Shown here: positions 3,681-14,594 of the stretch, piece by piece
How the letters are laid out: the number at the start of each line of letters is the position of its first letter
Position numbering within the stretch: the first letter of the stretch is position 1
Source of the DNA: an uncultured Dorea sp.
GTDB lineage: Bacteria; Bacillota; Clostridia; Lachnospirales; Lachnospiraceae
Direction of reading: 5' to 3'
Assembly (NCBI GenBank): GCA_934295165.1
Contig: CAKRAT010000053.1
Location: 1-14,594, forward strand
DNA: 14,594 nucleotides
Program-made: the position numbers and the translations under genes
The notes under the pieces: generated by a model
What the model was told of the DNA's origin: nothing
What the model saw: only the letters and a program-made list of their open reading frames with translations
The model's database searches: none

Positions 3681-4244
3681 TTATGATCTCTCCATCATAT
3701 TCTTCGGCAGCGCCTTTGTAAGTGTACTTACTACGAGCAGACAGATCACACGGTCAATATAATCTGTAAAGAACTGAACCACAAAGCATGCACCTACCAT
3801 TCCAATCGGAGTTTTGGCAAGAAGCTGCACCAGAACCGTAGAACCTGATGATGTAATCCCGCCAAATAAGAATGCCGTAATGCAGGAACTTACAATCGTT
3901 GACGGCAACGTAATTACCAACGCCGCCACAAATATCCACCATTTTTCCGGCTTATATTTACGATATACCAGACCAGTCACCAGACCAAGAATGATACCGA
4001 CAGGTGCGTAGTATAAAGAATATACGTCAACCGTCATTCCCATGAACAGACCACTGATTACATTCGGAAGCATTCCATAGACTGGTCCTAACGTAGATGC
4101 AATGAATACGGTTCCGATACTGTCCAGGTAGATTGGAAGCTTCAAAAATAATGCGATCTGCCCTCCAACCAGATTAATGCAGATTGCAAATGCAATGATG
4201 CAGATTTTGTATGTTGATACTCTATATGTTGATGTTTTTTTCAT
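3681..4244 (-). CDS. ECF transporter S component, likely for queuosine/queuine
   Basis: A 187-residue membrane protein with about six helices. It has the S-component look: a short basic start (MKKTSTYR), a hydrophobic stretch ending in GGQIALFLKLPIYLDSIGTVFIA (about 28-50), GPVYGMLPNVISGLF, and a small-residue-rich remainder. It resembles the CD3073-type ECF-S group. Such proteins capture a vitamin-like substrate and need a shared EcfA/A'/T module, which is not in this window. The ATG at 4244 has GAGGAG 9 bases upstream and lies 17 bases after the nucleoside hydrolase stop, so the two form an operon. The upstream preQ1-I riboswitch points to a 7-deazaguanine substrate (queuosine, queuine or preQ1), similar to the QrtT/QueT transporters. 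Family confident; substrate inferred. Confidence 0.85.
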   Translation of the reverse strand: MKKTSTYRVSTYKICIIAFAICINLVGGQIALFLKLPIYLDSIGTVFIASTLGPVYGMLPNVISGLFMGMTVDVYSLYYAPVGIILGLVTGLVYRKYKPEKWWIFVAALVITLPSTIVSSCITAFLFGGITSSGSTVLVQLLAKTPIGMVGACFVVQFFTDYIDRVICLLVVSTLTKALPKNMMERS

Positions 4245-4261: not shown

Positions 4262-5236
4262 TTATAACACATTTTTCAAAATATCCAGACTCTCAGCTTC
4301 TACTTCCAGTACTCTCGAAAGCATCATTTCGAAAAACCGGTATGTATCTACCTGTGTCAGTACTTTTGCATTCGCTTCTTTTCGGTAAAAATTCATCGAA
4401 TCGACAACCGACTGCCCCAGTGATATCCCTTCTGTCTCAATCTGGACAAAAGACTCAAATCCTTCACAGATCGAAGGATCAATAAAATATGCTACAGCAA
4501 GAGGATCGTTAATCACACATCCGACGATGTGTTCCCACTGCCAGTGAAAATCAAAATAAAACTTTGTAATCTTCTTAATAAACGCACCTCTTTTTGCATT
4601 TATCCGGCACATATACTCCAGAATCGTTGGTGTCAGAACAATTTCTCTCGTCACGTCCAGACCAATCATATGGATCTTTCTTCCATTCTGGTACATTGCA
4701 TCATATACTTTCGCTGCCGCATCCGGATCACACCAGTAATTGTATTCCGCTACCGGCGAACAATTTCCATGGCTTTTAAACGTCCCGCCCATAGACACGA
4801 ATTCTTCGATCTGATCAAACGCAGCTCTGTCTTGTTCGAGCAATGTTGCAAGATTCGTCATTGGTCCAAGTGCTATTACGGAAATGTGCCCTTCTTTCAG
4901 CTTTGATGCAAGGAATTCTACTGCTCCCATCTCCTGACAAAATCCTTCTACTTCTGGTAAAAAGCTTTCACCAAGTCCATCTTCTCCATGCGTGTCAAGT
5001 GCATTGACATACTCCCGGCGCAGCGGTTTTTCTTTGCCTATATAGACAGGAACATCTAACCTGTCCATATGCTTCAGCACTTTTTTCGCATTTCCGAATC
5101 CCATCTCTACCGGACAGTTCCCGCATACAATGGTGATTCCAACTACCTCGAGTTCTTCCGACTGCAATGCCAGCATGATAGCCAGGCTGTCATCAATACC
5201 CGGATCACAGTCGATGATTACTTTTCTTTTTTCCAT
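4262..5236 (-). CDS. Nucleoside hydrolase, likely queuosine hydrolase (QueK-like)
   Basis: A 324-residue member of the inosine-uridine nucleoside hydrolase family, normal length. It has the calcium-binding DCDPGIDD (9-16), NALDTHGEDGLG (78-89), GPMTNLA (124-130), MGGTF (149-153), the AEYNYWCDPDAA substrate loop (163-174) and NDPLA (243-247), with D244 as the late calcium ligand. In many family members the residue before that Asp is His, the leaving-group acid; here it is N243. The gene is first in the transcript under a preQ1-I riboswitch and is followed by an ECF-S gene. This context suggests it splits queuosine (or another 7-deazaguanine nucleoside) into base and ribose. The ATG at 5236 has a weak purine-rich ribosome site (AAAGGGA). 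Alternative: an ordinary purine or pyrimidine hydrolase. Confidence 0.88.
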   Translation of the reverse strand: MEKRKVIIDCDPGIDDSLAIMLALQSEELEVVGITIVCGNCPVEMGFGNAKKVLKHMDRLDVPVYIGKEKPLRREYVNALDTHGEDGLGESFLPEVEGFCQEMGAVEFLASKLKEGHISVIALGPMTNLATLLEQDRAAFDQIEEFVSMGGTFKSHGNCSPVAEYNYWCDPDAAAKVYDAMYQNGRKIHMIGLDVTREIVLTPTILEYMCRINAKRGAFIKKITKFYFDFHWQWEHIVGCVINDPLAVAYFIDPSICEGFESFVQIETEGISLGQSVVDSMNFYRKEANAKVLTQVDTYRFFEMMLSRVLEVEAESLDILKNVL

Positions 5237-5268: not shown

Positions 5269-5366
5269 AAAAAAATACTTTTGCTTACAGAAACCCCATA
5301 ACCAAAAGTAATCATACATGTTATGTACTTTGCCTAGTTTTTTATACTGGGAGGTTTTCGAACCAG
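5269..5366 (-). promoter_or_regulatory. preQ1-I riboswitch with transcription terminator
   Basis: Read on the minus strand, 5366-5333 is 34 nt long, the same length as the classical preQ1-I aptamer. CUGG pairs with CCAG as stem P1 (CUGGUUC...CUCCCAG). An A-rich tail follows, UAUAAAAAACUAGG, nearly the same as the known class tail UAUAAAAAACUAA. Downstream, TACTTTTG (5310-5303) pairs with CAAAAGTA (5283-5276), followed by seven T (5275-5269): an intrinsic terminator. CAAAGTA just after the aptamer tail can pair instead with TACTTTTG as an antiterminator. Binding of preQ1 would sequester the tail and favour termination, switching off the hydrolase and ECF-S genes. The aptamer match is direct; the switching model follows the known class. 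Confidence 0.85.
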
Positions 5367-5377
5367 TTCAAGACTAT

Positions 5378-9993: not shown

Positions 9994-10476
9994 TTACCCA
10001 AGTACTCCTTTTAATGTGTGCATCAATATATTGATGTCAACCGGCTTGGCTACATATCCATCCAGTTCCGGCATCTGGATATCCATCAGAATTGCATCAT
10101 AGTAACATTTCGGTTTTTCTTTTACCGACAGCTCAAATACCGCCTGAATGGAATGTATCAGTTCTTCAAAATCTCCCTCTTCCGCCTTTAACGTTACCTT
10201 TCCACCTTCAATCCTTGCCATCTCCAGAACATAATTGATGATCGACAACAAAAATGTACTGGACGTATGAATCTTTTCAATATAATCCAATGCACGTTCC
10301 TTTTCATCAATATGTTTTTTCAAAAGATCGGAAAAGCCCATGATCGCATTCATCGGTGTACGGATATCATGACTTATATTGAACATAAATCTTGTCTTAG
10401 CTTCATTCGCCGCTCTTGCATCATCTACCGCTTTCCTTTGCGAGTCTTGCTTTCTTCTCGCCGGATTCTGCAGCAT
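9994..10476 (-). pseudogene. Internally deleted hybrid sensor histidine kinase remnant
   Basis: A 160-codon open frame made of three pieces of a hybrid kinase. Residues 12-120 are the end of a linker coiled coil and the HisKA dimerisation domain, with the phospho-acceptor His in NISHDIRTPMNAI (H36). Then, without any HATPase domain, comes the middle of a receiver domain, YDAILMDIQMPELDG (D132). It joins directly to the receiver's end, VAKPVDINILMHTL (K144). The sensor part, the ATP-binding domain and most of the receiver are gone, so it cannot be an active kinase. The junctions are near residues 121-124 (about 10104-10116) and 140-142 (about 10051-10059). Both deletions kept the frame. The ATG at 10476 has no ribosome site, so the true 5' end is also lost. 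It is either a decayed gene or a leader peptide-like frame coupled to the helicase. Confidence 0.75.
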
Positions 10477-13604: not shown

Positions 13605-14594
13605 TCATTCTTCCAGATTCTTTCCAAGTCTGATTTTTTCCATTTTCTTCACAAATTCCTCATCCGCATGGTCAAACAGATAGTTCCGGTCACTGACCCG
13701 CTGCTTCTCATTCTCTTCTTCAATCAGTTTTCTTGTATATTCAATCTCCTCCAGAAAATCTCTCGAAGAAATACGGGTTCCGCCCTGCCCCATCGTGATC
13801 ACCTGCTCTACCCCGTCGGAGGTCACAACCGTCACATGATACTTTCTTCCGATATGATGAACGACCTTTTCAATATACTGATCGGCTGTCTCCGCCTCTT
13901 TGGTATACACAACATGGATATTATGATACTTCTGGATCTCCAGTGCATAACCTTCCACCTTGTATGCATCAAACACCAGGATCAGTACACATTTCTTATA
14001 TCCCTGATAATTGCAAAGGATATCCATCAGCTTGTCCCTTGCAGCCTCGATGCTGACTTTCGCCAGTTCTTTCAGTTCCTCCCATGCAAAGATGACATTG
14101 TAACCATCAACCAGCAGATATTCCTGCATGACTTCTTCTTTTTTACGCTGTTTTTTCGCATACTCGCTTTCGTAGGTCTGTGATGTCAGTCCACCTTTTC
14201 TTTCTACTTTGCCGTATGTCCGGATGAAGATTTCTTCCAGTTCTTTTTCTTCTGCTTTTGAATAGATCACCGGTGTTCTTGCAGCTCTCGGCATCTGACG
14301 TGCAGCCTGTTCGGACTGTCTCTTTGCCTCTTTTAGTGCACGTTCCTTTTCCAGCTGATTTTCCAGATGCATATATTCCGCCACCTGATTCCATGGAACA
14401 TTGAATCCTGCACCATGGGAACAGAAAACAGAGCCTGTCGGGTTCTCGATGTCACGTTCCGGATCATAGCCCATCTCTTCAATCACTGCTTCTGCATTCC
14501 GGCAAGATTCATAGCCACGGAATGTACAGGTCAGATGTCCCTGTCCTCTTGTATAAGAATTCACTTCCATCTGATAATCCCGCATACCGGTAAC
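13605..14594 (-). CDS. TetM-like ribosomal GTPase fused to YacP/Rae1 NYN nuclease (5' part missing)
   Basis: The frame is open to the window edge, so the N-terminal GTPase lies outside. Positions below count from the first Met seen (14585). Residues 1-75 match the C-terminal domain of TetM/TetO-type ribosomal protection proteins: MRDYQMEVNSYTRGQGHL, then NPTGSVFCSHGAGF and PWNQVAEYMHLE. After a charged helical linker (78-150), residues 155-326 match the NYN protein YacP/Rae1 end to end: LLVDGYNVI (157-165), VFDAYKVEG (204-212), YTKEAETADQYIEK (227-240) and VTSDGVEQVITMGQGGTRISSRDFLEE (254-280). The acidic site would be D160, D206, D235 and D257. Rae1 of Bacillus subtilis cuts mRNA in the ribosomal A site, so the fusion suggests a GTPase-guided mRNA nuclease or a rescue factor. 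It does not show tetracycline resistance. Confidence 0.9.
   Translation of the reverse strand, partial: VTGMRDYQMEVNSYTRGQGHLTCTFRGYESCRNAEAVIEEMGYDPERDIENPTGSVFCSHGAGFNVPWNQVAEYMHLENQLEKERALKEAKRQSEQAARQMPRAARTPVIYSKAEEKELEEIFIRTYGKVERKGGLTSQTYESEYAKKQRKKEEVMQEYLLVDGYNVIFAWEELKELAKVSIEAARDKLMDILCNYQGYKKCVLILVFDAYKVEGYALEIQKYHNIHVVYTKEAETADQYIEKVVHHIGRKYHVTVVTSDGVEQVITMGQGGTRISSRDFLEEIEYTRKLIEEENEKQRVSDRNYLFDHADEEFVKKMEKIRLGKNLEE

Follow-up and report, generated by a model that had tools for sequence, protein, structure and literature searches.

Fusion of a Rae1-Type NYN Nuclease to an EF-G/Tet Superfamily Translational GTPase in Clostridia

The fused gene at the locus

The window, that is the whole stretch of DNA analysed here, comprises 14,594 nucleotides from an uncultured Dorea sp. 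(contig CAKRAT010000053.1). At its end, one open frame of 329 codons on the minus strand (13605-14594) runs off the window at 14594, and its stop ends at 13605. Judged from this frame and from full-length relatives, it is the 3' end (329 codons plus the stop) of a GTPase-NYN fusion gene. In the order of translation and all on the minus strand, it encodes the C-terminal part of an EF-G-type domain V (residues 1-37, 14484-14594), a C-terminal helix region (residues 51-80, 14355-14444), a charged, variable linker (residues 81-157, 14124-14354) and a YacP/Rae1-type NYN nuclease domain (residues 158-329, 13608-14123). The domain V assignment comes from a Pfam EFG_C match that is weak in the window (residues 3-34, 22.4 bits vs the cut-off of 27.9). 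The helix region reads NPTGSVFCSHGAGF...VAEYMHLENQ, where the motif NPTGSVFCSHGAGF precedes the helix and sits between the domain V tail and the charged linker; unfused GTPases of the family end nearby. The linker has patchy AlphaFold confidence. It holds a conserved motif, LEEIFIRTYG (residues 119-128, 14211-14240), mostly within a predicted helix of residues 113-127. Since the GTPase itself is outside the window, which holds the domain V tail, helix region, linker and NYN domain, it was studied in relatives.

The Pfam NYN_YacP model matched over the whole domain (2.5e-53, residues 160-322, model positions 1-165 of 166), and the Rae1/YacP structures 5mq9 and 5mq8 in the PDB matched the window protein by sequence (7.2e-28 and 2.9e-27, respectively). 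Four acids, D163 (14106-14108, aligned to Rae1 D7), D209 (13968-13970), D238 (13881-13883) and D260 (13815-13817), again on the minus strand, were invariant in 100 of 100 fused and 28 of 28 free NYN domains; we take them to be the catalytic residues. A preliminary description of this DNA had put a GTPase C-terminal part, a charged linker and a complete YacP-like NYN domain with four acids in one frame, all of which was confirmed; its D160 and D206 are D163 and D209 here, as its numbering starts at the first ATG. In the AlphaFold model of the window part, most ten-residue blocks of the NYN domain had pLDDT of 79-94, with weaker blocks at 54-63. Searched with Foldseek at E <= 0.001, this model gave three matches only, all Rae1 chains, with rmsd of 1.6 and 1.8 Å for 5mq9 and of 6.6 Å for 5mq8_A over a longer alignment, and in the fold match the window NYN was 39-41% identical to B. 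subtilis Rae1. The B. subtilis enzyme thus has the NYN fold and the four acids in common with the fusion; however, it is a free enzyme without the GTPase, and free forms keep their C-terminal tail.

The GTPase part in relatives

In a scan of genome contigs, 255 stretches were found to encode relatives, and the best 80 of the 255 were analysed; they belong to Lachnospiraceae genera, to other Clostridia, or are labelled merely 'bacterium' or 'Firmicutes'. In nearly all 80 loci the frame continues upstream into an EF-G-type GTPase, and the complete rows, at 865-984 aa, combine the GTPase motifs and the NYN domain in a single frame. G1 was present in 77/80, G3 in 79/80, G4 in 78/80 and G5 in 76/80, five rows being cut at the 5' contig end. 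The nearest relative among these best 80 (L001) is 77% identical and forms a single 923-aa frame with the Pfam domains GTP_EFTU, EF-G_D2, EFG_III, EFG_IV, EFG_C and NYN_YacP, and the complete EF-G set (G, II, III, IV, V) plus NYN was found in all three relatives checked. As their frame unites G1, G3, G4 and domains II-V, the relatives belong to the translational GTPases of the EF-G/Tet superfamily. All 120 protein relatives listed, out of at least 7,982 scored, had EF-G-type domains and PF05991. The preliminary description had proposed a survey of other genomes for the same architecture, and GTPase and NYN in one frame indeed proved common in Clostridia. A full-length AlphaFold model of L001 had middling confidence in the GTPase and poor confidence in the NYN (mean 67.6). 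Its best Foldseek matches were EF-G structures, but the overall superposition was poor (rmsd about 20-29 Å), so this model was taken as evidence of fold family alone.

Among solved structures, TetO and TetM were the best matches by sequence, aligned nearly full length, and the NCBIfam model tet_protect was still the best for the nine relatives tested, the EF-G models scoring lower. However, all nine fell below the tet_protect cut-off (404-455 bits vs 775). In TetM, the drug-displacing tip of domain IV loop 3, Ser508-Pro509-Val510, sits at the drug site, according to two papers (PMC7456112, PMC8161019). In our 80 relatives this tip is replaced by x-Lys-His without exception: all 80 read KHTEGGDFR, with Lys at the Pro509 position, which was located through the ungapped alignment of L001. 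Eighteen unfused GTPases were also fetched, of which 14 read KHT[ES]GGDFR, one (L124) EHTHGGDFR, and three had no match to the pattern. As judged from these sequences, the GTPase of the fusion is not a typical tetracycline-protection protein. Tetracycline resistance as the leading reading was thus ruled out by the curated score together with the tip residue, and the 'ribosomal protection' or antibiotic tolerance role proposed in the preliminary description found no support on the same two grounds.

The surroundings of the gene were not shared among the relatives. The AAA ATPase, MATE and UvrD genes of the window had no match in the 80 loci, some of which are short at contig ends, and its histidine-kinase piece had a match in one of them (L079), again with some loci short. 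No RNA leader was found upstream of the fused gene in nine loci (Rfam, gathering thresholds). Elsewhere in the window, a PreQ1 riboswitch (5328-5372, minus strand) lies upstream of a nucleoside hydrolase gene (4262-5236, minus strand) and of a gene for a probable ECF transporter substrate component (3681-4244, minus strand), the last just below the cut-off; presumably these serve queuosine precursor salvage. A short ORF (9994-10476, minus strand) has a HisKA domain only, with a receiver-like tail seen by eye and without an ATPase domain, and may be a histidine kinase leftover after internal deletion.

Fused and free Rae1 across genomes

We searched 147 genomes of the order; their completeness was not given, so that some absences may be gaps. 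The NYN_YacP family was found in 132 of them and not in 15. Classified by open-frame length, 51 genomes had a fused gene (at least 500 aa) and 82 a free one (150-300 aa), two of these (G117 and G135) having both; in one more (G103) the fusion is in two frames. Under independence, 28 genomes with both forms would be expected, and an intact free rae1 was not seen in 49 of the 51 fused genomes. The fused frame of G117 and the GTPase of G085, for which no NYN was found, reach contig ends. Nine loci were traced to their nine genomes, each of which had just one NYN, in every case within a 900-930 aa frame. The best rlmB lay within 2 kb in 72 of the 82 free cases, with a median gap of 44 bases, and in none of the 51 fused ones, for which it was farther away on the same contig in 13 and on another contig or unlisted in 38. 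Hence the rlmB adjacency that is usual, although not strictly defining, for Rae1/YacP was not seen for these fused genes. In G103, the fused gene is broken where domain IV meets domain V into two frames that overlap (L098, 1344-1350); this is either an assembly error or a real frameshift.

A profile search with the GTPase part found the same GTPase family unfused in 19 of the 147 genomes, 18 of the proteins being 641-687 aa and one partial, and every one of these genomes had a free rae1. As 80 of the 94 non-fused genomes (G085 set aside) have rae1, this co-occurrence (19/19) has p 0.03, which is weak and ignores kinship, as do all our p values. Among the 82 free-Rae1 genomes, 61 were without this GTPase at the threshold used (19 had it unfused and 2 fused; G130 and G070, with distant GTPase matches only, are counted among the 61), indicating that Rae1 in general does not need the GTPase. 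In a wider sample of the class, the GTPase was found in 163 of 393 genomes. Among the 150 rows listed (14 GTPase genomes have their rows outside these), 128 genomes had frames of at least 780 aa, by length alone, 18 were of unfused length (645-729 aa), 3 were unclassified (678, 588 and 554 aa), and one was a second row. Fused-length frames in 128 genomes suggest that the join is stably kept.

In relatives, the free rae1 is located between rlmB and sigH, the identities of which were confirmed in L087 and L088. We inspected this ancestral site in 10 stretches, out of 51 fused genomes. G026 keeps between rlmB and sigH a piece of 29 residues that is 76% identical to the start of free Rae1, and G053 a piece of about 83 residues with 58% identity to the G135 and G117 free genes over a 113-column alignment. 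In G135 and G117, a free rae1 of 177 codons is intact at this site beside a fused gene elsewhere. In G002, G089 and G032, the gene after rlmB is sigH and the interval holds no NYN; the stretches fetched from G041, G030 and G073 gave no SigH match. The free genes of G135 (L089, 1454-1984, minus strand) and G117 (L091, 1397-1927, minus strand) share a long branch (0.89) in the NYN tree, which would fit relaxed constraint.

In a careful GTPase tree of 42 rows, the fused proteins formed one clade (100/99) inside a paraphyletic unfused set. This tree leaves out 6 named fused rows as well as L094, L112, L117, L123 and L155 of the 53, some of them long-branched; a quick tree of the 53 rows also gave a fused clade (98) with the unfused proteins outside. 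The NYN tree (61 rows) needs two changes, since the free genes of G091 and G011 fall among the fused ones, and a single clade of fused NYN domains was not rejected (p 0.52). By eye, nearly all 18 fetched unfused GTPases end in or just after the C-terminal helix region, L124 being different, and the motif at their ends is often varied; they thus end approximately where the fused linker starts. One origin of the GTPase part of the fusion, from a GTPase ending near its C-terminal helix, is therefore supported by the alignments and trees in the sampled genomes.

Differences between fused and free NYN domains

The match to the C-terminal tail of Rae1 stops early in fused NYN domains only: the profile match ends at position 156 or before in 31 of the 51 fused genes, while it reaches at least position 164 in all 82 free ones. 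In five fused genomes the NYN match crosses an in-frame stop; their ORFs extend 139-158 residues past the beginning of the NYN motif, which places these stops near the C-terminal end. In 11 of the 100 aligned fused proteins the chain ends 135-149 residues beyond DGYN, compared with 162-166 residues in the 28 free ones. The window's own NYN retains the tail that other fused NYNs lose. In PMC6613710, the tail mutation R166P of B. subtilis Rae1 is among those read as loss of function, indicating that the tail seems important in free Rae1. In addition, an Arg present in 28/28 free NYN domains was found in 46/100 fused ones, with Leu in the other 54/100; the window has Arg. The linker is 67-120 aa long, 40% charged and mostly unconserved. 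Against this variable background, a motif of the type [LI]xxIFxRT[YF] occurs in 75 of the 80 rows formed by the window and 79 relatives, and in the window the helix that carries it was predicted at about 81 pLDDT, with poorly predicted flanks.

A homologue with a reduced GTPase part was found in G042 (L099, 2784-3230 and 3417-4931, plus strand), where Rfam RF00028 (group I intron) matches in the G domain region at 54 bits against a cut-off of 50. Its ORF of 504 aa has domains II, III and NYN and gave no match for domains IV and V, so the nuclease appears to outlive the GTPase there.

Discussion

In our reading, to which we give a probability of roughly 0.6, the gene encodes an EF-G/Tet superfamily translational GTPase, distinct from typical tetracycline-protection proteins, whose C-terminus carries a Rae1-type nuclease. 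This fusion architecture is already known: Atkinson 2015 (PMC4342817) reported YacP-like NYN domains on Clostridiales 'Tet' proteins of ten species and proposed an RNase-based resistance mechanism. By domain content, the relatives of our gene belong to that group. However, our reading differs, since the tip of the GTPase departs from that of TetM and the fusion occupies the place of free Rae1. No literature on the fusion beyond Atkinson 2015 was found in the material covered, the primary Rae1 papers lying outside that scope; Rae1 was reported as an A-site endonuclease in 2017, as related in PMC12320835 and PMC6613710. Compared with TetM and TetO, the fusion GTPase has the EF-G-type domains G-V in common but differs in the Lys at the Pro509 position, the score under the curated cut-off and the added NYN. 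It also shares with EF-G the domain order and the GTPase motifs, although EF-G has no NYN. What is new here is the non-typical-Tet nature of the GTPase, the unfused GTPase accompanied by free rae1, the single fused clade with replacement of rae1, and the tail loss confined to fused forms.

The simplest reading of the ancestral site is that the free gene outlasted the fusion event and was later lost in several lineages, which is what a takeover by the fused enzyme predicts. The fused enzyme probably replaced free Rae1, for which the support is good, and, standing in its place, probably does its job. We tentatively favor the explanation that the GTPase delivers the tethered endonuclease into the A site. 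In the boldest form of this explanation, given somewhat less than even odds, the protein would be a bacterial quality-control factor that can 'recognise, clear and cut' as a single chain and that displaced the free nuclease in a large Clostridia clade, with the unfused GTPase as the hidden partner of Rae1 in relatives. The GTPase would dock, like EF-G and TetM, on ribosomes whose A site is open or blocked, and its domain IV with the Lys-His tip would probe or clear the decoding site. The NYN domain on its linker of about 80 residues would then enter the vacated A site and cut the mRNA. In this way the GTPase would supply ribosome access to the tethered Rae1, and part of the ribosome docking may have moved from the tail of Rae1 to the GTPase. 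Of these steps, we infer ribosome binding, cutting and GTP-driven A-site delivery. The link between GTPase and nuclease drawn in the preliminary description gained support from the one-frame join, the intact active site in relatives and the frequency of the architecture in Clostridia. Its link to mRNA cleavage in the A site gained partial support, in the genomes searched, from the fused gene nearly always standing where free Rae1 would be, the cleavage itself being presumed. TetM places domain IV in the A site, as PMC7456112 and PMC8161019 describe. Both a TetM-like domain IV and Rae1 would use this site; their competition counts against the delivery explanation, and sequential action is therefore favored. 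The main points against are the occurrence elsewhere of free Rae1 without this GTPase and, in G042, of a NYN without domains IV and V.

These two points also speak for a passive fusion, in which the NYN works exactly like free Rae1, the GTPase has a separate job and the joining ties expression only. The NYN is kept in G042 beside a reduced, interrupted GTPase, 61 of the 82 free-Rae1 genomes do without this GTPase at the threshold used, and a long, mostly unconserved linker would suit two independent parts. However, such a fusion would not readily account for tail loss in 31/51 fused and 0/82 free genes, for an Arg that is universal in free forms and present in fewer than half of the fused ones, for the conserved helix motif within the linker, or for fused-length frames in 128 genomes of the class sample (by length alone). 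We regard it as possible at about one chance in four. Somewhat less likely again, the order of steps may be reversed, so that the GTPase splits or releases the leftover ribosome in an EF-G-like manner after the NYN cut. Such recycling agrees with the presence of all EF-G domains in 3/3 relatives and with the rescue, by tmRNA for example, of ribosomes left behind after A-site mRNA cleavage (PMC12320835). It overlaps the delivery explanation, and the step order is not readable from sequence.

Two further explanations seem improbable. According to PMC4342817, a role in the maturation of rRNA and tRNA had been proposed for the YacP-like NYN domain, and the fused NYN might have this role instead of cutting A-site mRNA. 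Nevertheless, the domain is of the Rae1 type with 39-41% identity to B. subtilis Rae1, the activity stated for Rae1 in PMC12320835 and PMC6613710 is A-site mRNA cleavage, and the fused NYN stands in for rae1. Slightly less probable still is that the protein confers tetracycline resistance and has gained an RNase, as suggested by the 'Tet' name and by Atkinson 2015. This explanation agrees with TetO and TetM as the closest solved structures by sequence, with tet_protect as the best NCBIfam model and with P0065, which among the named records listed is called TetM/TetW/TetO/TetS family. The curated cut-off missed by 9/9 relatives, the Lys in 80/80 and the replacement of rae1 by the fused form all argue against it.

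A clade that joined Rae1 to an EF-G-like GTPase and then largely dropped the free enzyme points to a partner for Rae1 and makes the question of how Rae1 finds its target ribosomes testable with one purified protein. It is also a warning that, in genomes of this kind, some genes annotated for tetracycline resistance may have a housekeeping role.
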